A stretch of DNA of 38,669 bases from Deltaproteobacteria bacterium (lineage in GTDB: Bacteria; Desulfobacterota; Binatia; DP-6), in contig VBKG01000305.1 in NCBI GenBank assembly GCA_005879585.1, positions 1 through 38,669 on the forward strand, given 5' to 3'. Made by a program: the position numbers and the translations under genes. Below are positions 13,262-38,058 of the stretch, piece after piece (position 1 is the stretch's first letter; every line of letters begins with the position of its first letter). The notes below the pieces were generated by a model. The model had not been told where the DNA came from. It saw nothing but the letters and a program-made list of their open reading frames with translations, and made no database searches.

Positions 13262-14122
13262 TCAGCCGCCGGCGCGCTTCGACTGCGGCGACGGCACGGG
13301 GACGGACCGTCGATACGGGACCGGGATGTACTGCACCGACGGGCGCCCCGTCGACGCCTGCGGGAAGAGCCGCATGTAGTCGTAGATCTCCCGCGGCATG
13401 TCGGTGTTGATCGGGAGACCGAGCTGCGTGAGCGTCTCGACGTTGAGCGGATGATCGTGCGTCCACTGGCCCTGCGTGAACGTGTCCGCCAGCGCCGCGG
13501 CCTTCTCGGGGCCGAACCGGTCGGACAGGACCGCGGCCACGCACTCGCGCAGCTGGAACATGGCTTTCCGCGCGATGTCTTCGAGGATCAGCGTCTCGTC
13601 GTCGATCTTCTGCTCGTGCTCCGTCTTCCAGGCGACGGCGCGGACGATCGAGGCCGCAGGGTGGTTGCCGAGCTGCGGGTCGAGCGAGCCGAGGACCGCG
13701 TTCGGATCCATGACGATCTCGTCGGCGGCGAGCGCGATGAGCGTGCCGCCGCTCATCGCGTAGTGCGGCACGAAGACGGTGACCTTGGCGCGTCGGCGGC
13801 AGATCGCGTGCGCGATCTGCTCGGCGGCGAGCGCGAGCCCGCCCGGCGTGTGCAGCACGATGTCGATCGGCACATCCTCGGCCGTGAGCCGGAGTGCGCG
13901 CAGCAGCTCCTCGCTGTCCTGGATGTCGATGTAGCGGATCAGCGGAAAGCCGAGCAGGCTCATCGTCTCCTGGCGATGGATGAGCGCGATCACGCGGCTG
14001 CCGCGACGGCGTTCCCAGCTGCGCAGGAAGCGGACGCGTTGCAGGTCGAGGAGCCGGCGCTGCACCATGGGCGCGACCGCCGTGACCAGGAACAGGAACC
14101 AGAGGAGGTCGCTCGCGTGCAA
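13262..14122 (-). CDS. SDH-type (ClpP-fold) membrane-anchored serine protease
   Basis: A 286-residue protein of the serine dehydrogenase proteinase family (PF01972), related to the ClpP/SppA fold. One N-terminal membrane helix (about 5-19) is followed by a crotonase-like core: an oxyanion-type loop at HTPGG, the probable nucleophile serine in AMSGGT, and PNAVLGSLDPQLG. The start is a TTG (14122); it lies 9 bases after the upstream gene's stop, and no ATG or GTG precedes the membrane helix. Last gene of the ttuB operon. Its role there is unknown; membrane-protein quality control is only a guess. Confidence 0.83.
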   Translation of the reverse strand: MHASDLLWFLFLVTAVAPMVQRRLLDLQRVRFLRSWERRRGSRVIALIHRQETMSLLGFPLIRYIDIQDSEELLRALRLTAEDVPIDIVLHTPGGLALAAEQIAHAICRRRAKVTVFVPHYAMSGGTLIALAADEIVMDPNAVLGSLDPQLGNHPAASIVRAVAWKTEHEQKIDDETLILEDIARKAMFQLRECVAAVLSDRFGPEKAAALADTFTQGQWTHDHPLNVETLTQLGLPINTDMPREIYDYMRLFPQASTGRPSVQYIPVPYRRSVPVPSPQSKRAGG

Positions 14123-14131
14123 GCGCGACGC

Positions 14132-14872
14132 CTACAGGCGGCGTGGCGACGGCGTGCCGGTGCTGCCGCGCTTCAGACGCTTGCGCAGCAGCGGGATGGC
14201 GTTGATCTTGAGCGGCCGGAGCAGGTCCCAGTAAATGCCACGTGGCCGTGGGTGCGCCGGGCGCGTGGCGATGACCTCGCTCGGGGTCACGAGGAAGTCG
14301 ACCGGCACGTCGTGCGGCAGCATCGTGACCCGCTCCGCCACGATCTGCACCGGATGGACCGTCGTGAGAATCGGCGTCGACTCGCGGACCTTGCCTTCCT
14401 CGCGCAGGAGGCCGTACTCGAGATCGCAATAGCCGCCGCCCTTGCCGAGCCGCGCTCCGTCGCGCCCGACCCCGACCGAGCCGCACACCACGAGGTCGAC
14501 GGGCCGCATCTCGCGCGGCGAGACGGCACGTCCGTACCGACATGCCCCCGCGATGCTCCCGGCCAGCATCGCCTTCTTGCCGAGACGCTGCGGATCGATC
14601 TCGATGAAGCACTTCTCCGTCCGGAGCCGCGGCACCGCCATATAGATGATCTTGCCCTCGGCGAGTGCCAGCCGCCGTACGGCGAGCTGCGGGGCGTCGG
14701 GGTTGATCTTCACGACGAGCGCGCGACGCCACACGGCCATCTCGCGCAGGAGGTGCGCCGCTTGCTCGGCGCCGACGAAGTTGGGAACGCGGCCGTACGC
14801 GCCGGGGAACCGCGCCGCACCCTCGCGTTGAATCGTCAGCCAAACCTTTTGGCGGATCTCCGCCTTCGTCAT
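14132..14872 (-). CDS. MTHFSD-like member of the 5-formyltetrahydrofolate cyclo-ligase family
   Basis: A 246-residue protein of the 5-FTHF cyclo-ligase superfamily. The nucleotide-binding signature is RLGKGGGYCDLEYG rather than the usual RLGYGGGYYDR, and the C-terminal half (VTPSEVIATRP, PRPRGIYWD) resembles what I remember of the MTHFSD branch more than classical YgfA/Fau. Cyclo-ligase activity is therefore possible but not assured. ATG at 14872 is preferred; an in-frame GTG at 14893 would add seven residues. It begins 24 bases after the trmI stop and is followed closely by the SDH-type protease. No folate gene is nearby. Confidence 0.78.
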   Translation of the reverse strand: MTKAEIRQKVWLTIQREGAARFPGAYGRVPNFVGAEQAAHLLREMAVWRRALVVKINPDAPQLAVRRLALAEGKIIYMAVPRLRTEKCFIEIDPQRLGKKAMLAGSIAGACRYGRAVSPREMRPVDLVVCGSVGVGRDGARLGKGGGYCDLEYGLLREEGKVRESTPILTTVHPVQIVAERVTMLPHDVPVDFLVTPSEVIATRPAHPRPRGIYWDLLRPLKINAIPLLRKRLKRGSTGTPSPRRL

Positions 14873-28418: not shown

Positions 28419-29141
28419 ATGCCTCTCGTCCAGGCGATCGAGCTGGAAAAGCGCTACGTGGACGGGCCGGCAGTGGTGTCGGTGCTCGAGGGCCTCGACC
28501 TCGACATCGAGCCCGGTGCGCGGATCGCCATCGTCGGCGAGTCCGGCGTCGGTAAGAGCACGCTGCTCCACCTCCTCGGGGCGCTCGACCGCCCGACCGC
28601 CGGCCGCATCCTCTTCGACGGCGACGACGTGTTCGCGCGCCGCGAGCCGGACCTCGCCGGCTTTCGCAATCGCGAGGTCGGGTTCGTCTTCCAGTTCCAT
28701 CATCTGCTGCCGGACTTCACTGCGCTCGAAAACGTCATGCTGCCGGCGCTGATCGCGGGCGAGGCCTTCCGCGAGGCGAGCAGCCGCGCCACCGCGCTGC
28801 TCGAGCGGGTCGGCCTGCAGGCGCGTCTCGCCCACCGCCCCGGCCAGCTCTCCGGCGGCGAGCAGCAGCGGGTCGCGGTGGCCCGCGCCCTCGTGCGCCG
28901 GCCGCGTCTCCTGCTCGCCGACGAGCCCACCGGGAACCTCGACCCGGCGACGGGCGAGGGCGTCCAGCAGCTCCTGATGGAGCTCAACCGCGAGCACGGG
29001 TCGGCGCTCGTGGTCGCGACACACAACGCGCGGCTCGCCGCGGCCATGGGGCGGACGCTCCGGCTCGCTGCGGGGCGGCTCCGCGAAGAGCGCCCATCGC
29101 CGCTCGCGCGCGTAGGCGGTGCGGCCGGAGCCGTGTCGTGA
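28419..29141 (+). CDS. lolD: LolD ATP-binding protein
   Basis: ATPase subunit that powers lipoprotein release with LolC, 240 residues, cytosolic face of the inner membrane. Walker A is GESGVGKST (about 40-48), the ABC signature [15 protein letters not shown] (about 145) and Walker [13 protein letters not shown]. The start ATG follows the lolC stop by 6 bases; the stop overlaps the bamA GTG (GTGA). The C-terminal 15 residues are a low-complexity tail. Confidence 0.95.
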
Positions 29142-31483
29142 GCCGGCCGCTCGACGCGGCGCTGGCCGTGGCGATCGGGCTCGCGGCCGCCACAGCACCG
29201 CTCTTCGCGCAGGGCGAGCCGTCGATCACCCGCGTCGCGATCGAGGGAAACGTCCGCGTCGAGGAGGACGCGATCCGGGTCCACCTGCGCACGCAGACGG
29301 GACAGCCCTTCGAGCGCGACACGCTCGATCGCGACATCCGCGCGGTCTACGCCATGGGCTTCTTCGACCAGGTCGACGCCGACGTGAGCCCCGCCGGCGA
29401 GAACCACGTCGCCGTCACGTTCCGCGTGAAGGAGCGCGCGCTGGTCCGCACCGTCAAGGTCGAGGGAACGAAGAAGCTGAAGCGCGAGGAGGTCGAGGGC
29501 GCGCTCAAGGTCCGCCCGCACACGATCCTCGATCCGGAGAAGGCGCGCCAGGGCATCGAGGCCGCCAAGAAGCTCTACGTCGACAAGGGCTACCTCGACG
29601 CCGAGATCGCGTACCGGACGGCCCCGGTCGGCGAGAACGAGGTCGACCTCTTCTATACGGTGAAGGAGGAGTCGCCGGTTCGCGTGACGGAGGTCGCCTT
29701 CGAGGGCAACCGGGCGTTCTCGGGCCGGAAGCTCCGGCGCGTCATGCAGACGCGCAAGAAGTGGCTCCTCTCGATCATCACCGGCGCGGGCATCCTCAAC
29801 AAGGACGTGCTCCGCACCGACATGGAACGGCTCACCGCCTTCTACTACGACCACGGCTACATCACGGTGAAGGTCGACGAGCCGCGCGTCGAGCGGCGCG
29901 ACGACGGTCTCCACGTCACCGTCAAGATCGAGGAGGGCGATCAGTACCGCGTGGCCGACGTGACGATCGTCGGCTCCAACGTCCCCCCGGACACGACGCG
30001 CCTGCGGCGCGACCTCGCCACGACGCCGGGCGACGTCTTCAAGGCGAGCGCGCTCCGCGAGGACGTGCAGAAGCTGACCGAGCGCCTCTCCGACGACGGC
30101 TACGCCTTCGCAACGGTCGATCCCGACACCGAGATGCACCCCGAGCAGAAGACGGTCGACATCGCCTTCCAGGTCGATCGCGGCCGCCAGGTCACGGTCG
30201 AGCGGATCGAGGTCACCGGCAACACGAAGACGCGCGACCAGGTGCTGCGTCGCGAGATGCGCCTCCAGGAGCAGGAGCTCTTCTCGGCCACCAAGCTCCG
30301 CAAGAGCCGCGAGGCGCTCCAGCGCCTCGGCTTCTTCAAGGAGGTGAACATCACCACCCGCCGGACCGGCGCCGACGACCGCATGAACGTCGTCGTCGAC
30401 GTGAAGGAGGGGCAGACGGGCGCCTTCAGCGCCGGCGCGGGGTTCAGCTCCGCCGATTCGCTGCTCTTCAACCTCCGCATCCAGGAGAACAACCTCTTCG
30501 GGCGCGGCCAGCGCCTCGTGCTGAACGGCGACGTCGGCTCGCTCCGCCGCAACATCATCCTCTCGTTCACCGAGCCGTACTTCCGCGAGACGCCGCTCAC
30601 CGTCGGCGCCAGCGCCTTCAGCTGGCGGCTCCAGTTCGACGAGTTCGCACGCGGCGGCACGGGCATCGGCACCCAGCTGACGTACCCGGTCACGGCATGG
30701 GGCTACACCTCGCTCTGGGGCCTGCCGCTCGAGGAGGTGCGCGTCGGCGCCGACTACCGGCTCGAGCAGGCCGACATCAACAACCTCGGGTTCGGCGCGA
30801 CGCGCTCGATCCGCGCCGAGGAGGGGACGAGCCTGATCAGCAGCGTCACGCCCCACGTGTCGCGCAACACCCTGAACCACGCCTTCGACCCGACCGCCGG
30901 CTCCTTCCAGGAGGTCTCCCTCGAGGCCGCGGGACTCGGCGGGGAGCGGTTCACGAAGATCGAGGGACGCCAGCGCTGGTACTACACGTTCCTCCGCTCG
31001 AAGTCCCTCGGCGACTTCACGTACTCGCTGGGCAGCACGGTGGGCTACGGGTTCGGTAGCGGCGGCCTCACCGGCACCGACCTGCCGCTCTTCGAGCGCT
31101 ACTTCCCCGGCGGGATCAGCTCCATCCGCGGCTACAAGAGCCGTACGCTGGGTCCGCGCGAGGAGCGCAAGGACTTCTTCGGGAACGTGATCTCGACCAC
31201 TCCGATCGGCGGCAGCGAGGAGGTCGTGCTGAACAACGAGATGATCTTCCCGCTCGTGCAGGGCATCGGTCTCAAGGGCGTGTTCTTCGTCGACGCCGGC
31301 AACGCCTACGGCGCGGACGAGGGCATCTCGCTCAGCAACACCCGCTTCTCGGCGGGCGCTGGCGTCCGCTGGCTGTCGCCCGTCGGCCCGCTCCGCATCG
31401 AGCTCGGGAAGCCGTTCAATACCAAGCCCCACGACCAGAAGAGCCTCGTGCTCTTCTCGTTCGGGGGGCCGTTTCAATACTAG
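29138..31483 (+). CDS. bamA: Outer-membrane protein assembly factor BamA
   Basis: Core of the BAM complex that inserts beta-barrel proteins into the outer membrane. The 781 residues include a signal peptide (about 1-25, ending FAQG), five POTRA domains (about 27-425) and a 16-strand barrel (about 430-781). The barrel holds the conserved loop-6 motif as [14 protein letters not shown] and ends in an aromatic residue pattern (SFGGPFQY). The GTG start overlaps lolD. It is followed after 9 bases by the skp/ompH gene. Confidence 0.96.
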
Positions 31484-31488
31484 GGAGG
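31483..31488 (+). promoter_or_regulatory. Shine-Dalgarno of skp
   Basis: GGGAGG, four bases before the GTG start at 31493 and sharing its first G with the bamA stop. It fixes the GTG as the start of the Skp-like gene. Confidence 0.6.
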
Positions 31489-31492
31489 TTGC

Positions 31493-32047
31493 GTGAGCCA
31501 GATGACCCGGTGGATCGGGATGACGATGCTCCTCGCCCTCGCGGCGGCCGCGCCCGTGCGCGCGGAGCTGAAGATCGGCGTGGTGGACATGCAGCGGGCC
31601 CTCAACGACTGCGACGCGGGCAAGAAGGCGCGCGATCAGGTGAAGGCGAAGTTCGAGAAGGCGCAGGACCAGCTGAAGCGGCAGCGCGAGGACCTCGATC
31701 GCCTGCGCGGGGACTATGACAAGAAGGCGGTGGTGCTGAAGGAGGAAGAGCGGCGGAACCTCGAGAAGGACCTCGAGAACCGCAGCCTCGAGTTCAAGCG
31801 CAAGTACGAGGACTTCCAGCGCGATCTCAAGCGCACGGATTCCGAGCTGACCGCGGGGATCGTCGACGAGCTCTACGGCCTCGTGCGCGACTACGGCGAG
31901 AAGCACGGCTACTCGTTCGTGCTCGAGGCGTCGAACGGCGCGCTGCTCTACAACGACAAGGCGACCGACATCACCGACGACATCATCAAGCTCTACAACA
32001 CCTCGCCGCGCCACGAGGGAGCGCGGTCCAGCAAGGTGAAGGAGTAG
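31493..32047 (+). CDS. skp: Skp/OmpH-family periplasmic chaperone
   Basis: Periplasmic chaperone that escorts unfolded outer-membrane proteins to BamA, 184 residues. The signal peptide covers about 1-24 (core MTMLLALAAAAPV, ending VRA). The mature protein begins ELKIGVVDMQRALN, the typical OmpH N-terminal strand, followed by a long charged helical hairpin (about 45-125) and the C-terminal GYSFVLEASNGALLY strand. In many diderms lpxD follows this gene; here the next frame is the fabZ-lpxA fusion. Confidence 0.92.
   Translation: MSQMTRWIGMTMLLALAAAAPVRAELKIGVVDMQRALNDCDAGKKARDQVKAKFEKAQDQLKRQREDLDRLRGDYDKKAVVLKEEERRNLEKDLENRSLEFKRKYEDFQRDLKRTDSELTAGIVDELYGLVRDYGEKHGYSFVLEASNGALLYNDKATDITDDIIKLYNTSPRHEGARSSKVKE
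32039..32044 (+). promoter_or_regulatory. Shine-Dalgarno deciding the fabZ-lpxA start
   Basis: AAGGAG inside the end of skp, 9 bases before an in-frame ATC (32054). No ATG, GTG or TTG occurs in this frame between the in-frame stop at 32045 and the GTG at 32117, while conserved FabZ residues already lie upstream of that GTG. Confidence 0.55.
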
Positions 32048-32053
32048 GGACGC

Positions 32054-33232
32054 ATCACGTCACAGACTGAGCAGCGCGGGCCGTCGCCGGCGTTTCCTTA
32101 CCCGCTGATCGACCGGGTGCTCGAGGTCGAGCCCGGGACGCGGGCCGTCGGGACGAAGCTCGTGTCGGCCAACGAGCCGTACTTCGCGGGCCATTTTCCC
32201 GGCGCGCCGGTTTTGCCCGGCGTGCTCGTCTGCGAGGCGCTCGTCCAGCTCGGCGCGCACCTGGTCGACGAGCCCGACGCGCTGCGGCTGCTTGCGGTCG
32301 AGCGCGCCCGGTTCCGGCGGCCGGTCGTGCCCGGAGACGCGTTGCGGCTCGAGGTGACGCGGCGGACCCCCGGCTCGCCGCTCCAGCTCCACGGCGTCGT
32401 GTCGGCGGGGTCCGTCGTGGTGGCCGAGGTCGACTTCGCCGCCGCGCCGTCCGCGGGGCCGACCGTCCATCCGACGGCCGTGGTCGCGCGCGGCGCCGAG
32501 CTCGAGGCGGGGGTCACGGTGGGGCCGTATGCCGTGATCGGCCCCCACGTCCGCGTCGGCGCCGGCTGCCGCATCGGGGCCCACGCCGTGGTCGACGGGC
32601 ACACCACGCTCGGCGAGGCGACGCGCATCTTCTCCTTTGCGAGCGTCGGGTCGATTCCGCAGGACCTCAAGTATGCCGGTGAAGCGAGCACCCTCGAGCT
32701 CGGCGAGGCGAACATCGTGCGCGAGTTCGTCTCGATCAACCCCGGCACGGCGGCGGGCGGCATGGCGACGCGGACCGGCAAGGGGTGCGTGTTCATGGTG
32801 AACGCGCACGTCGGCCACGACTGCCGGCTCGGCGATCATGTGATCGTTTCGCCGGGCGCGGCGCTCGGCGGACACGTCACGATCGAGGACCACGCCATCA
32901 TCGGCGGGCTCGTCGGCGTGCACCAGTTCGTGCGGATCGGCGAGTCGGCGCTGTGCGCCGCGGGGGCGATGGTGTCGATGGATGTCCCGCCGTTCTGCGT
33001 CGCGGCGGGTGATCGGGCGCGGCTGCGCGGCCTGAACGTCGTCGGCCTCCGCCGCCGCGGGTTCACGTCGGCCACGCTGGCAGCGCTGAAGCGGGCGTAC
33101 CGGATGCTCTTCCAGGCGCCCGGGACGCGCCGGGATGCCGTCGCGCACACGCGCGAGGCCGTCGGCCACGTGCCCGAGGTGGCGCACCTGCTCGACTTCG
33201 TGTTGGCGTCGCAGCGCGGGGTGTGCCGGTAG
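32054..33232 (+). CDS. lpxA: FabZ-LpxA fusion: hydroxyacyl-ACP dehydratase domain plus UDP-GlcNAc acyltransferase
   Basis: About 392 residues. Residues about 15-130 form a hot-dog FabZ domain with the catalytic pattern [20 protein letters not shown] (His and Glu both present). Residues about 133-392 are LpxA: left-handed hexapeptide repeats from VHPTAVV, the catalytic His in NAHVGHDC, and the C-terminal helical region. LpxA adds a 3-hydroxyacyl chain to the sugar nucleotide in the first step of lipid A synthesis; FabZ removes water from the same acyl-ACP pool. FabZ homology ([15 protein letters not shown]) begins before the first GTG (32117), so an ATC at 32054 behind AAGGAG is the likely start. 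The reading frame is continuous through the junction. Confidence 0.9.
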
Positions 33233-33233
33233 C

Positions 33234-34088
33234 ATGGAGCGACGCCCGAAGGCGGAACGGCTCGCCGCCGAGCGCATCGGTCTGGTCGCGGGCAGCGGGC
33301 GCTTTCCCGTGCTGTTCGCCGAGACCGCGCGGCGCCGCGGGGTCGAGGTCGTGGCGGTGGCCCACCTGGGCGAGACGGATCCGGCGCTCGAGCGCGTCGT
33401 CAGCGCCATCACGTGGATCCATCCGGGCGAGCTCGATGCGATGATCCACGCGCTGCAGACGGCCGGCATCCGCCGGACGGTCATGGTCGGCGGCATCGCC
33501 AAGCCGCGGCTCTTCCGCGAGCTCAGGCCGGACGAGCGCGCGACGCGCCTGCTGGCGCGGCTCGACAAGCTGCGCGACGACCTGGTGCTGCGCGCACTCG
33601 CGGCGGAGTTCGAGACGGAGGGGATAGCAGTGGTGGAGTCGACGCTGTATCTACAGGAGATCGTGCCCGTGGCCGGGGTCCTCGGCACCCGTGCGCCGAG
33701 CGAGGAGGAGTGGAGCGAGATCCGCTTCGGCTTCCGTGCGGCGAAGGTGATCGGGCAGTTCGACATCGGCCAGAGCGTGGTGGTGCGGAGCGGGGCGGTG
33801 ATCGCGGTCGAGGGGATCGAGGGCACCGACGCGACGATCCGGCGTGCCGGGCAACTGGCGAACGGCGACATCGTCGTCGTGAAGGTGTGCAAGCCGACGC
33901 AGGACACGCGCTTCGACCTGCCGGCGGTGGGTCCGGAGACCGTGCGCACGCTCGCCGAGATGCGTGGCCGGGCGCTCGCCGTCGAGGCCGGACGGACGAT
34001 CACTCTCGATCGCTCCGAGATGATCGCGCTCGCCGACGCGGCGGGCATCGCGGTCGTCGCGGTCGCGCCGGCGGAGGTCCCGACATGA
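33234..34088 (+). CDS. lpxI: UDP-2,3-diacylglucosamine pyrophosphatase LpxI
   Basis: Cleaves UDP-diacylglucosamine to lipid X, the fourth step of lipid A synthesis, in organisms lacking LpxH. The 284 residues are usual. The N-terminal domain starts at IGLVAGSGRFPVLFAE; the C-terminal domain has IGQFDIGQSVVVRSGAVIAVEG and VCKPTQDTRFDLPAVG, both typical for LpxI (DUF1009). The ATG follows the fabZ-lpxA stop by one base, and the stop overlaps the next gene (ATGA). Confidence 0.94.
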   Translation: MERRPKAERLAAERIGLVAGSGRFPVLFAETARRRGVEVVAVAHLGETDPALERVVSAITWIHPGELDAMIHALQTAGIRRTVMVGGIAKPRLFRELRPDERATRLLARLDKLRDDLVLRALAAEFETEGIAVVESTLYLQEIVPVAGVLGTRAPSEEEWSEIRFGFRAAKVIGQFDIGQSVVVRSGAVIAVEGIEGTDATIRRAGQLANGDIVVVKVCKPTQDTRFDLPAVGPETVRTLAEMRGRALAVEAGRTITLDRSEMIALADAAGIAVVAVAPAEVPT

Positions 34089-35074
34089 GCACACCCGCGG
34101 AAACGATCCTGGCCGGCGGTCCGCGGCTCCGGACCGCAGTCATCGGGGTTGGATACCTCGGCCGGTTTCACGCGGAGAAGTACGCGGCGAATCCGGCGGC
34201 CGAGCTCGTCGCGGTCGCCGACGTCGACCCCGCGCGTGCCCGCGCCGTCGCGGCCGCGCTCGGCGTCGAGGCCGTCACCGATTACCGCGCGCTCGCCGGC
34301 CGGATCGACTGCGCGAGCGTCGCCGTCCCGACCCAGCTGCACCACGCCGTCGCGTGCGACCTGCTCGACGCCGGGGTCGACGTGCTGGTCGAGAAGCCGC
34401 TCACGACCACGGTGGACGAGGGCAAGGCGCTGCTCGAGCTCGCCGTCCGCCGCGGGCGCGTGCTGCAGGTCGGCCACCTCGAGCGCTTCAACCCGGCGAT
34501 CCGCGCGCTCGACGGCATCGTCCGCGAGCCGCGCTTCATCGAGTGTCACCGCCTCGCGCCGTTCACCGAGCGCGGCACCGACGTCGACGTCGTGCTGGAC
34601 CTCATGATCCACGACCTCGACGTCATCCTCAGCATGATGCCGTCGCCGCTGCGCTCGGTGGAGGCGGTCGGCGTCCCCGTCCTGACCAATTCCGTCGACA
34701 TCGCCAACGCGCGGCTGCGCTTCGCCAACGGTGGCATCGCCAACGTCACCGCGAGCCGCGTGTCCCTCAAGCGCGAGCGGAAGCTCCGCATCTTCCAGCC
34801 CGACGCGTACCTTTCGGTCGACTACGGCGAACGACGGGTGCTCATCTGCCGCCGCGAGTCGGGGCCGGACGGTCTTCCTGCGCTCAGCCTCGAGGAGCGC
34901 GAGGTGCCCGAGGCCGACGCGCTCGGCAGCGAGATCGATGCGTTCCTGAGTGCGGTCCGCGATCGCGAGACTCCACCCGTGACGGGCTGGGACGGGCTCC
35001 GCGCGCTCGAGGTGGCGCACGTGATCCTCGAGAGCCTCGAGACGGAGAGCCGCGCGGCGCAGGCGCGCTCGTAG
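34085..35074 (+). CDS. Gfo/Idh/MocA oxidoreductase, GnnA-like
   Basis: NAD(P)-dependent sugar-nucleotide dehydrogenase of 329 residues. The Rossmann motif is VIGVGYLGRFHAEKY (about 20-34), the conserved EKPLTTT lysine motif lies near 102-108, and HLERFNPAI plus DLMIHDLDVILSM follow. Located between lpxI and lpxB, it resembles GnnA, which oxidises the 3-hydroxyl of UDP-GlcNAc so that the aminotransferase GnnB can form the 3-amino sugar for amide-linked lipid A. No GnnB is in the window, so the role is inferred from position only. Confidence 0.83.
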   Translation: MSTPAETILAGGPRLRTAVIGVGYLGRFHAEKYAANPAAELVAVADVDPARARAVAAALGVEAVTDYRALAGRIDCASVAVPTQLHHAVACDLLDAGVDVLVEKPLTTTVDEGKALLELAVRRGRVLQVGHLERFNPAIRALDGIVREPRFIECHRLAPFTERGTDVDVVLDLMIHDLDVILSMMPSPLRSVEAVGVPVLTNSVDIANARLRFANGGIANVTASRVSLKRERKLRIFQPDAYLSVDYGERRVLICRRESGPDGLPALSLEEREVPEADALGSEIDAFLSAVRDRETPPVTGWDGLRALEVAHVILESLETESRAAQARS

Positions 35075-35077
35075 ACC

Positions 35078-36268
35078 ATGGCCGGACGTGGTGCATCCGC
35101 CGTCCCGGCGGCGCCGGCGCGGCGCGCGCGCGTGCTGCTCGTCGCGGGCGAGGCGTCGGGCGACCTGCACGGCGCGGACCTCCTCGCGGCGCTCCGCGCG
35201 CGGATGCCTGAGGTCACCGTGTTCGGGATCGGCGGCGAGCGCCTCCGCCAGGCGGGCATGGAGACCGTCGCCGATGCCGGCGACGTGGCGACGGTCGGCG
35301 TAACGGAGGTGGTCGGGCGGCTGCGGGCGTTGGTGCGCGCCTACCGCCGGCTCGTTCGCGCGCTGCGCGCCGACCCACCGGATCTGTGCGTGCTGATCGA
35401 CTTCCCGGAGTTCAACCTCCGGCTCGCGCGCGCCGCCAAGCGCGCGGGCGTGCCGGTGCTCTACTACATCGGCCCCCAGGTCTGGGCGTGGCGACGCGGC
35501 CGCGTTCGCAAGGTCGCCCGCCGTGTGGACCGACTCGCCGTCGTCTTTCCCTTCGAGCCGCCGCTCTATGCCGCCCGGTTGCCGGCGGTCGAGTTCGTCG
35601 GCCATCCGCTGCTCGACCGGGTGACGGTCTCGCGCGGGCGCCGGGAGACGCTCGTCGCGCACGGCCTCGACCCCGACCGGCCGACCGTGCTCCTGCTCCC
35701 CGGCAGCCGGCCGAACGAGATCCGCTCGCTCCTCCCGGACCTCCTCGACGCCGTCCGGCGGCTCGCGGGCGCCGGCGGGTACCAGTTCCCGCTCGCGCTC
35801 GCCCACACGGTGCCGCGCGCCGAGGTGCAGGACCAGATCCGCGCCGCTGGCGTCGACGTCCCGGTGATCGAGGGCGACACGTACAACCTGATCGCGGCCG
35901 CCGACCTCGCGCTGGTGACGTCCGGAACCGCGACGCTCGAGTGTGCGCTCCTCGAGTGCCCGATGGTGATCGTCTACCGCGTCTCACCGCTGACGGCGTT
36001 CGTCGCGCGCCTCCTCGTCCGCGGCGTTCGCCACATCGGGATGCCCAACATCGTCGCGGGCCACGAGGTGGTGCCGGAGCTTCTCCAGGGCCGTGCGACG
36101 GGGGAGGGGATCGCGGCGGCGGCGCGCGGCATCCTCGAGAGCCCGGCGCGCCGCGCGGAGATCGTCGGCGAGCTGCGCGACGTGCGCCGGCGGCTCGGGC
36201 GCGGCGGCGCCGCGGGCCGGGCGGCGACCATGGCCGCCGAGCTGCTCGGCGCCGGGGACCGCGGGTGA
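35078..36268 (+). CDS. lpxB: Lipid-A-disaccharide synthase LpxB
   Basis: Joins UDP-diacylglucosamine and lipid X into the lipid A disaccharide at the inner membrane face (GT19), 396 residues. Typical motifs: AGEASGDLHGADL (about 23-35), FGIGGERLRQAGME, LIDFPEFNLRLA, YYIGPQVWAWRRGR, LLPGSRPNEI and SGTATLECALL. The ATG is 3 bases after the preceding stop. The stop overlaps the msbA GTG (GTGA). Confidence 0.96.
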   Translation: MAGRGASAVPAAPARRARVLLVAGEASGDLHGADLLAALRARMPEVTVFGIGGERLRQAGMETVADAGDVATVGVTEVVGRLRALVRAYRRLVRALRADPPDLCVLIDFPEFNLRLARAAKRAGVPVLYYIGPQVWAWRRGRVRKVARRVDRLAVVFPFEPPLYAARLPAVEFVGHPLLDRVTVSRGRRETLVAHGLDPDRPTVLLLPGSRPNEIRSLLPDLLDAVRRLAGAGGYQFPLALAHTVPRAEVQDQIRAAGVDVPVIEGDTYNLIAAADLALVTSGTATLECALLECPMVIVYRVSPLTAFVARLLVRGVRHIGMPNIVAGHEVVPELLQGRATGEGIAAAARGILESPARRAEIVGELRDVRRRLGRGGAAGRAATMAAELLGAGDRG

Positions 36269-38058
36269 AGCAGTATCGCCGGCTGCTCGGCTATCTGCGG
36301 CCCTACCTCTGGCCGCGCGGCGTGCTCGCGATCGCCGCGATGCTCGGCTTCAGCGGGGTCGAGAGCGCGATCCCGTTCCTCGCCAGATTCACCTTCGACC
36401 AGGTCTTCACCCAGCAGCATCGCGACGCGCTGCCGCTGGCCGTCGTCGGCGTGCTCGTGCTCGCGGTCCTGCGCGGGGGACTCGATCTCACCTCCGAGTA
36501 TCTGACCGACTGGATCGGGCAGCGCGTGGTGACCGACCTGCGCGACCAGCTCACCACCCACATCCAGCGGCTGGACCTCGCCTTCTTCAACCGGCAGCGG
36601 GCCGGGCAGATCGTGTCGCGCGTGACCACGGACGTGTCGCTCGTGCGCGGCACCGTCACCGACGCGCTCACGTCGCTCTTCGAGGACATCACCCGGCTGA
36701 TCGGCCTCGTGACGGTGGCGGTCTACATGGACTGGGTGCTCGCGCTCCTCGCCGTGATCCTCTTCCCCGTCGCCGGGCTGCCGCTCCGGTACTTCTCCAA
36801 GCAGCTCCGCCAGACGGGGCGCCGCATGCAGGAGGGCATCGGCCGCCTGAACGCGATGCTCCACGAGAACGTGCAGGGCAACCGCGTCGTGAAGGCGTTC
36901 GGCCAGGAGCGTTACGAGCAGGAGCGCTTCCACGAGCACAACGAGCGCCTGTTCCACCTCTACATGCATCAGAGTCTCCTGCGCGCCGTGCCGATCACCG
37001 AGCTGCTCGCCGGCATCGCCGTCGCCGGCATCATCTACTACGGCGGCGCGAGCGTCATCGCCGGCACGCGGACGCAAGGCGCCTTCATCGGGTTCGTCAT
37101 CACGCTCTTCCTGCTCTACGAGCCCTTCAAGCGGCTGGTCCGCACGAACTACTCGATTCAGCAGGGGCTCGCCGGCGCCGACCGGGTCTTCGAGCTGATG
37201 GACACGCGGCCGCAGGTGGTCGATCGGCCGGCGGCGCGCGTGCTCCACGGGGTGCGTGACGGGATCGCCTTCCAGCGGGTGAGCTTCGCCTACGAGCCCG
37301 GGGAGCCCGTGCTGCGCGCGATCGACCTCCACATCCGGGTGGGCGAGGTGGTGGCGCTGGTCGGCATGAGCGGCGGCGGCAAGAGCACGCTCGCGGACCT
37401 CATCCCTCGCTTCTACGACCCGACCGAGGGGCGGATCACGGTCGACGGCGTCGACGTGCGCGATCTCACGCTCACAAGCCTCCGCGCCCACATCGCGGTG
37501 GTGACGCAGTTCACTTTCCTCTTCAACGACAGCGTCCGCGCCAACATCTCGTACGGCGATCCGCGCCGGTCGATGGACGAGATCGTCGCGGCGGCGCGGG
37601 CGGCCAACGCGCACGACTTCATCCTCGAGCTGCCGCGCGGGTACGACACGCACATCGGCGACCTCGGCGTGCGACTCTCGGGCGGGCAGCGGCAGCGGCT
37701 CGCCATCGCGCGCGCGCTGCTGAAGAACGCGCCGATCTTGATTCTCGACGAGGCCACCTCCGCGCTCGACAACGAGGCCGAGGGCCTCGTCCAGGAGGCG
37801 CTCGAGCGGCTGATGGCCAACCGCACGACGCTCGTCGTGGCGCACCGGCTCTCCACGGTCCGGCGCGCCGACCGGATCGTCGTCCTGGTGCGCGGCGAGA
37901 TCGTCGAGAGCGGCACGCACGACGAGCTGCTCGCGCAAGGGGCCGAGTACCGGAAGCTCTACGAGCTCCAGTTCCGCGACCTGGAGATGCCGGAAGCCGC
38001 CGGGAACGACGAGATCATCGGCGAGGAGGGCCGGGCGCGGGCCGGCAAGGCGCGTTGA
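36265..38058 (+). CDS. msbA: MsbA-type lipid A flippase (ABC exporter)
   Basis: Fused membrane and ATPase half-transporter of 597 residues, expected to flip lipid A-core across the inner membrane as a homodimer. Six membrane helices cover about 15-310. The ATPase domain holds Walker A GMSGGGKST (about 370-378), the signature LSGGQRQRLAIARALL, Walker B ILILDEATSALD and the H-loop AHRLSTV. Position directly after lpxB supports MsbA over a drug exporter. The GTG start overlaps lpxB; the stop overlaps the next TTG (TTGA). Confidence 0.94.
   Translation: MKQYRRLLGYLRPYLWPRGVLAIAAMLGFSGVESAIPFLARFTFDQVFTQQHRDALPLAVVGVLVLAVLRGGLDLTSEYLTDWIGQRVVTDLRDQLTTHIQRLDLAFFNRQRAGQIVSRVTTDVSLVRGTVTDALTSLFEDITRLIGLVTVAVYMDWVLALLAVILFPVAGLPLRYFSKQLRQTGRRMQEGIGRLNAMLHENVQGNRVVKAFGQERYEQERFHEHNERLFHLYMHQSLLRAVPITELLAGIAVAGIIYYGGASVIAGTRTQGAFIGFVITLFLLYEPFKRLVRTNYSIQQGLAGADRVFELMDTRPQVVDRPAARVLHGVRDGIAFQRVSFAYEPGEPVLRAIDLHIRVGEVVALVGMSGGGKSTLADLIPRFYDPTEGRITVDGVDVRDLTLTSLRAHIAVVTQFTFLFNDSVRANISYGDPRRSMDEIVAAARAANAHDFILELPRGYDTHIGDLGVRLSGGQRQRLAIARALLKNAPILILDEATSALDNEAEGLVQEALERLMANRTTLVVAHRLSTVRRADRIVVLVRGEIVESGTHDELLAQGAEYRKLYELQFRDLEMPEAAGNDEIIGEEGRARAGKAR

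Follow-up and report, generated by a model that had tools for sequence, protein, structure and literature searches.

The analysis presented here suggests that a single gene of a Deltaproteobacteria bacterium (class Binatia) encodes, with good probability, a genuine bifunctional protein whose single chain begins with a FabZ-type dehydratase of 3-hydroxyacyl-ACP and ends with an LpxA acyltransferase, and that both halves are likely to be active. This reading is based on the single frame, the presence of both catalytic sets, purifying selection, retention of the fusion in 24 genomes, the scarcity of internal starts and the finding that no other FabZ match in the fused genomes tested outscores the fused domain. 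The window (the whole stretch of DNA analysed, 38,669 nucleotides of contig VBKG01000305.1) contains one frame, open from stop to stop at 32048-33232 on the + strand, that codes for a FabZ-type domain and a complete LpxA in a chain of 392 residues. Its parts are as follows:

32093..32437, + strand: FabZ-type hot-dog dehydratase domain (residues 14-128) with catalytic His47 and Glu61; pLDDT mostly above 90, with FabZ structures among the Foldseek matches
32438..32464, + strand: linker of about nine residues (approximately 129-137)
32465..33232, + strand: LpxA, UDP-GlcNAc O-acyltransferase, complete with its stop codon (residues 138-392); TIGR01852, His255 in HVGHD, Foldseek matches to LpxA structures

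The preliminary description had claimed an in-frame fusion of a hot-dog domain, carrying catalytic His and Glu, to a full LpxA, and the single frame, the domain matches and the conservation in 24 assemblies bear this out. It had also put the linker at about ten residues; the linker is indeed short, its length being about nine residues in the window, and it reaches up to about 30 in the fused proteins of family f6. With Pfam, the fused frame scored 66.1 bits for FabA/FabZ (PF07977, cut-off 23) and also matched Hexapep and Acetyltransf_11. The LpxA half scored 325.4 bits against the NCBIfam equivalog TIGR01852 (cut-off 231.05, residues 138-391), and it contains both the HxxHD motif of the catalytic His and the C-terminal Acetyltransf_11 domain. 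The other half scored 97.6-99.9 bits against the FabZ model NF000582, below its equivalog cut-off of 113, and because the window domain misses this cut-off it is referred to here as a FabZ-type domain and not as an equivalog FabZ. The model of the bifunctional LpxC-FabZ protein (PRK13188) reached 91.6 bits against a cut-off of 465 and matched the FabZ part only. The catalytic pair of FabZ, His47 and Glu61, is present with a spacing of 14 residues. Both residues and His255, to which we assign the role of the LpxA catalytic His, were invariant among 20 aligned fused proteins, and the catalytic motifs were retained in 24 out of 24.

Open frames are common by chance in this region, where antisense ones exceed 1000 aa. 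The openness of the frame is thus weak evidence, and we relied on homology, on the persistence of the same joined frame across 24 assemblies, on motifs and on dN/dS. Within genera, the FabZ part had a dN/dS of about 0.14-0.22 and LpxA one of about 0.09-0.15, both well below 1; between genera, the two parts gave similar values, higher than those within genera. A chance open frame was ruled out by homology, dN/dS and motif conservation. As a separate observation on the LpxA half, the His of the VHQF motif (the column of His290 in the window) is Ala in all seven f6 proteins aligned (L020-L026) and nearly invariant elsewhere.

The AlphaFold2 model of the single chain, built from a 38-row alignment, had a mean pLDDT of 92.1 and a pTM of 0.73, with low confidence at residues 1-13. 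When this model was searched with Foldseek, LpxA structures ranked first (4eqy, E 2.3e-23) and FabZ structures appeared from rank 31 (E 1e-9). A sequence search that returned 52 distinct sequences (E up to 1e-5) contained no solved chain spanning both domains. LpxA forms trimers, and FabZ assembles as three dimers. Given these threefold symmetries, we propose that two LpxA trimers could cap one FabZ hexamer, and the shared axis would allow a clash-free assembly such as LpxA3-FabZ6-LpxA3.

The position from which the preliminary description had started the gene, 32054, is an ATC codon. Two features define the probable initiation region:

32039..32044, + strand: Shine-Dalgarno-like AAGGAG that overlaps the 3' end of skp, with nine bases between it and the ATC
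32054..32056, + strand: probable start codon ATC; the next in-frame ATG, GTG or TTG is at 32117, inside the FabZ domain

The same AAGGAG-N9-ATC arrangement was common to three of the seven f1 genomes, belonging to three genera (G000, the genome of the window, G004 and G006). Among the other f1 genomes, G003 carried a GTG at this place, an ATG stood about 30 bases downstream in G001 and G002, and G005 gave no clear start. These comparisons suggest that the gene probably starts at the ATC. AUC starts are rare, and a genuine one here would keep translation of the fused gene at a low level. A promoter and terminator scan of window positions 28900-36300 gave nothing above chance.

We also considered whether the fused frame still yields two proteins, through internal initiation or through proteolysis. 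Most fused genes do carry in-frame GTG codons near the LpxA start, and proteolysis is invisible from sequence. In-frame starts preceded by a Shine-Dalgarno match of at least 5 were found near the LpxA start in 2 out of 24 fused genes, both at the FabZ end, and in 19 out of 66 unfused controls analysed with the same script, a weak control given that 47 of these 66 lpxA genes likewise lack such a match under this crude rule. Moreover, the fused genes of G018 and G036 had no in-frame ATG, GTG or TTG in the stretch near the LpxA start. A separate internal start for LpxA in the fused genes thus appears unlikely, and we regard production of two proteins by either route as improbable.

In order to determine how widespread the architecture is, we followed the suggestion of a domain search across relatives, which found the fusion in 24 out of 148 genomes of the class. 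The uninterrupted match across both domains was present in all seven f1 genomes, all six f7 genomes and 11 out of 14 f6 genomes; in the remaining f6 genomes, the locus was cut by the contig start (G493) or gave no match (G043 and G495). The other 121 genomes of the class, outside these three families, contained no uninterrupted match over both domains. In a sample of 395 genomes of the phylum, none of the 379 outside the class was fused among the matches listed (to about 2e-75), and the fused genomes in the same list, G000, G003 and G012, all belonged to the class. As a fragmented draft, the window genome is broken into 625 contigs, a state in which an assembly or sequencing error could have deleted a stop codon. 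The same uninterrupted fusion in 24 separate assemblies from three families refutes this reading, to which we attach practically no weight.

Among named GTDB loci, examined as the best 80 of at least 593 related stretches from one scan, 71 had fabZ and lpxA in the same frame, separated by at least one stop, eight had the genes in different frames and one was fused (L105). Adjoining genes in one frame with a stop between them, as in these 71 of the best 80 loci, are the setting from which such a fusion arises. The impression that FabZ-LpxA is not a usual architecture agrees with these counts (0 out of 379 genomes outside the class among the matches listed, one of the best 80 named loci). In addition, a PMC full-text search, which does not reach subscription papers, found no description of a FabZ-LpxA fusion.

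The fused named locus belongs to a Candidatus Margulisiibacteriota MAG. It encodes an in-frame FabZ-LpxA (L105 22-1188) with a short linker, as in the window, with 39% identity to the window protein and a Pfam FabA score of 120.6 bits. Its contig begins inside FabZ, and another contig of the same MAG (L274) ends inside the FabZ start, where the ATG overlaps the lpxC stop by ATGA. The lpxC gene therefore likely lies directly upstream of the fusion in this MAG, judging from the two separate contigs. We consider this fusion to be an independent case, differing from that of the window in its sequence, its origin and its probable lpxC neighbour.

Within the class, the history of the fusion could be read in two ways. 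In a FastTree tree of concatenated BamA, LpxI and LpxB, the fused families f1, f6 and f7 lay near each other with the unfused f5 among them, while an IQ-TREE quick tree of the same proteins placed f6 beside families lacking FabZ, with weak support. Constraining the 16 fused rows to one clade was not rejected (AU p 0.732), and the log-likelihood of the constrained tree was 14.1 above that of the free quick tree. Single-gene trees scattered the fused families: the LpxA tree did not unite them and the FabZ tree joined f1 and f7 only. A named Candidatus Binatia MAG (L090, Candidatus Binatota by its record) was 73%, 70% and 76% identical to f5 in LpxA, FabZ and LpxI, respectively, the outgroups being clearly farther, which makes the class most likely Binatia. 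As for the history, the trees are compatible both with one fusion followed by a split in f5 and with two to three origins.

These results also bear on whether the fusion is a neutral accident, in which loss of a stop joined two co-translated genes, the halves work as before and flux is independent of the linkage. This explanation shares its structural claim with that of a bifunctional protein and differs only on whether linkage matters. It is favoured by the adjacent genes with a single stop between them that are the rule in the best 80 named loci, making fusion a one-step change, by a linker length that varies freely from about 9 to about 30 residues, and by a tree that allows loss of the fusion in f5. 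The presence of the fusion in all 24 f1, f6 and f7 genomes in which the locus was seen whole argues against it, as does the separate second case in Margulisiibacteriota. We judge a neutral origin to be a plausible alternative, if not the one we expect.

The check for a separate fabZ gene proposed in the preliminary description was performed on the window genome and across a set of 28 genomes, 18 fused and 10 unfused, and no other candidate outscored the fused domain in the fused genomes. The fused domain was the best FabZ match in 18 out of 18, with the next best at 83.0 bits or less. In f6 and f7, it was the only one above the NF000582 cut-off of 113 bits in the 13 genomes tested. In the five f1 genomes tested, it scored 99.9-108.1 bits, below that cut-off, and the next hot-dog reached at most 82.8. 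G050 and G056 had no FabZ match besides the fused domain, and G003 (20 contigs, 100% complete) had a single other one of 59.2 bits. G000 and G001 carried further hot-dogs with lower scores than the fused domain, among them those of contigs C38 and C86, which by inspection sit in secondary ketosynthase-type clusters. On C38 of G000 (L035), inspection also revealed a separate fatty-acid-synthase-like cluster with FabF-, FabZ-, FabG-, FabA-, FabH-, FabI- and FabD-like frames. Among the unfused relatives, G009 (f4) had no FabZ match in its genome and G051 (f11) had only one, of 25.6 bits; fabZ was absent from the lipid A row at L216, L217, L220, L221, L222, L226, L228 and L229. The families without fabZ and the lack of any match in G009 indicate that FabZ is not indispensable in the class, which may have dehydratases of another kind.

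In f1, the conserved LPHR segment that precedes the first strand is missing from the domain, and LL replaces the usual YF. Both elements presumably line the FabZ substrate tunnel, so the activity or chain-length range of the f1 domain may be altered. This raised the possibility that the domain has become a dead or specialised hot-dog, one that would bind 3-hydroxyacyl-ACP on behalf of LpxA (for acyl delivery or dosage), while another hot-dog, such as that of C38 or C86, carries out elongation. Such a role would fit the loss of the LPHR segment and the YF pair, the f1 scores below the FabZ cut-off, the further hot-dogs of G000 and G001 and the existence of living relatives with no recognised FabZ. 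In contrast, His47 and Glu61 are invariant and the domain is under purifying selection, the C38 and C86 hot-dogs have lower scores and lie in secondary clusters, and the complete genome G003 has only its one 59.2-bit match to offer as a replacement. A dead or specialised f1 domain is consequently rather unlikely in our view.

Upstream and downstream of the fused gene, the window carries the row bamA-skp-[fabZ-lpxA]-lpxI-gfo-lpxB, followed by a gene that is msbA-like by inspection. The neighbours are:

29138..31483, + strand: bamA, with POTRA and Omp85 domains
31493..32047, + strand: skp/ompH (PF03938, 112.5 bits)
33234..34088, + strand: lpxI, UDP-2,3-diacylglucosamine pyrophosphatase (LpxI_N, LpxI_C)
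34088..35074, + strand: Gfo/Idh/MocA oxidoreductase; the nearest NCBIfam model is UDP-GlcNAc 3-dehydrogenase (192 bits, below its cut-off of 450)
35078..36268, + strand: lpxB (TIGR00215, 298.6 bits, cut-off 190)

We take the Gfo/Idh oxidoreductase at 34088-35074 to be GnnA-like, and on that assumption the lipid A of this organism may hold a diamino sugar. In the class, the row bamA-skp-lpxD-fabZ-lpxA-lpxI-gfo-lpxB occurred in f2, f12 and f117, a row without lpxD in f5, f8, f9, f13 and one of the two f15 genomes, and a row without lpxD and fabZ in f4, f10, f11, f14, f116 and the other f15 genome. In the window genome, lpxD and lpxC were each located on contigs other than that of the fused gene. 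Since fabZ and lpxA are adjacent separate genes in relatives, the fusion is of the Rosetta type. On these gene comparisons we describe it as a conserved fusion of two operon neighbours, apparently novel in its pairing and of a kind known from LpxC-FabZ.

That LpxC-FabZ fusions are known elsewhere, as previously pointed out, is in print, where LpxC-FabZ is described as a Rosetta fusion (PMC516016; PMC3087551). The LpxC-FabZ protein of Bacteroidetes, Chlorobi and Verrucomicrobia (PRK13188) likewise joins FabZ, by stop loss, to an adjacent lipid A gene of the same row. It differs from the protein described here in that FabZ follows LpxC at the C-terminus, whereas here FabZ occupies the N-terminus with LpxA as its partner; furthermore, LpxA directly competes with FabZ for one substrate and LpxC does not. 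The stand-alone FabZ and LpxA of the E. coli type share the domains, the catalytic residues and the gene order fabZ-lpxA, but they are two chains instead of one, and the f1 FabZ lacks the LPHR segment.

The competition between the dehydratase and the acyltransferase for 3-hydroxyacyl-ACP, invoked in the preliminary description, is established for E. coli: the substrate contested there is R-3-hydroxymyristoyl-ACP, and weak lpxA and lpxC alleles are rescued by mutations lowering FabZ (PMC13333357, PMC12444477). The same literature attributes the split of 3-hydroxyacyl-ACP in E. coli to this competition together with regulated breakdown of LpxC (PMC13333357). In P. aeruginosa, loss of fabZ was not rescued by deletion of lpxA or lpxC (PMC12152623), and this lack of rescue, unlike the situation in E. 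coli, indicates that the coupling varies with the species. With both competitors on one chain, their amounts would be fixed at 1:1, and the division between lipid A and phospholipid could no longer depend on the expression ratio. Control would then have to lie in kinetics, in a second LpxA or downstream at LpxC. The arrangement would not amount to channelling, as FabZ and LpxA are alternatives and not successive steps.

The window genome also carries a second, unfused LpxA (L036 9651-10454, contig C313 of G000) that scored 277.2 bits against the LpxA cut-off of 231. By inspection, it lies between hemD-like and ccmF-like genes, and such a paralogue occurs in most genomes of the class. The preliminary description had hypothesised that the fusion determines how much flux goes to lipid A relative to fatty acids. 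This might be the case, and the idea is weakened by the second LpxA above the cut-off and by the sister families with no recognisable FabZ.

The LpxC of the window genome (contig C138 of G000, 13554-14801, − strand; L192 1483-2730) has an N-terminal receiver domain (PF00072, 104.7 bits; LpxC, 268.9 bits), and a histidine kinase frame (HisKA, HATPase_c) directly precedes its gene. A full-length receiver-LpxC with no stop was found in 132 out of 148 genomes of the class; eight had no LpxC, seven a partial one, mostly at contig ends, and one carried a stop. Several more families of the phylum had it as well; in two of these, LpxC forms the C-terminus of an NtrC-like receiver-AAA (sigma-54 AAA) protein of about 756 aa (L303 1413-3680 and L305 2462-4735, both on the − strand). 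A PMC full-text search, within the texts it covers, found no description of a receiver-LpxC fusion; for Desulfovibrio, a response regulator binding upstream of lpxC is reported and not a fusion. We tentatively propose that the branch point has been rebuilt, with FabZ and LpxA locked at 1:1 and control moved to the receiver-LpxC, which the neighbouring histidine kinase could phosphorylate. If true, lipid A flux would be set by a phosphorelay on LpxC itself and not by LpxC proteolysis as in E. coli. The receiver-LpxC lies outside the main finding and may matter more than the FabZ-LpxA fusion.

Altogether, the fusion ties two competing activities, one serving fatty acid elongation and the other drawing the shared intermediate off into lipid A, at the branch of phospholipid and lipopolysaccharide synthesis. 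How cells apportion 3-hydroxyacyl-ACP to lipid A and to membrane phospholipid has long been asked, and a natural protein with both competitors at 1:1 would be a direct test piece for this question. With a receiver-LpxC alongside, this lineage appears to have solved the balance problem in another way.
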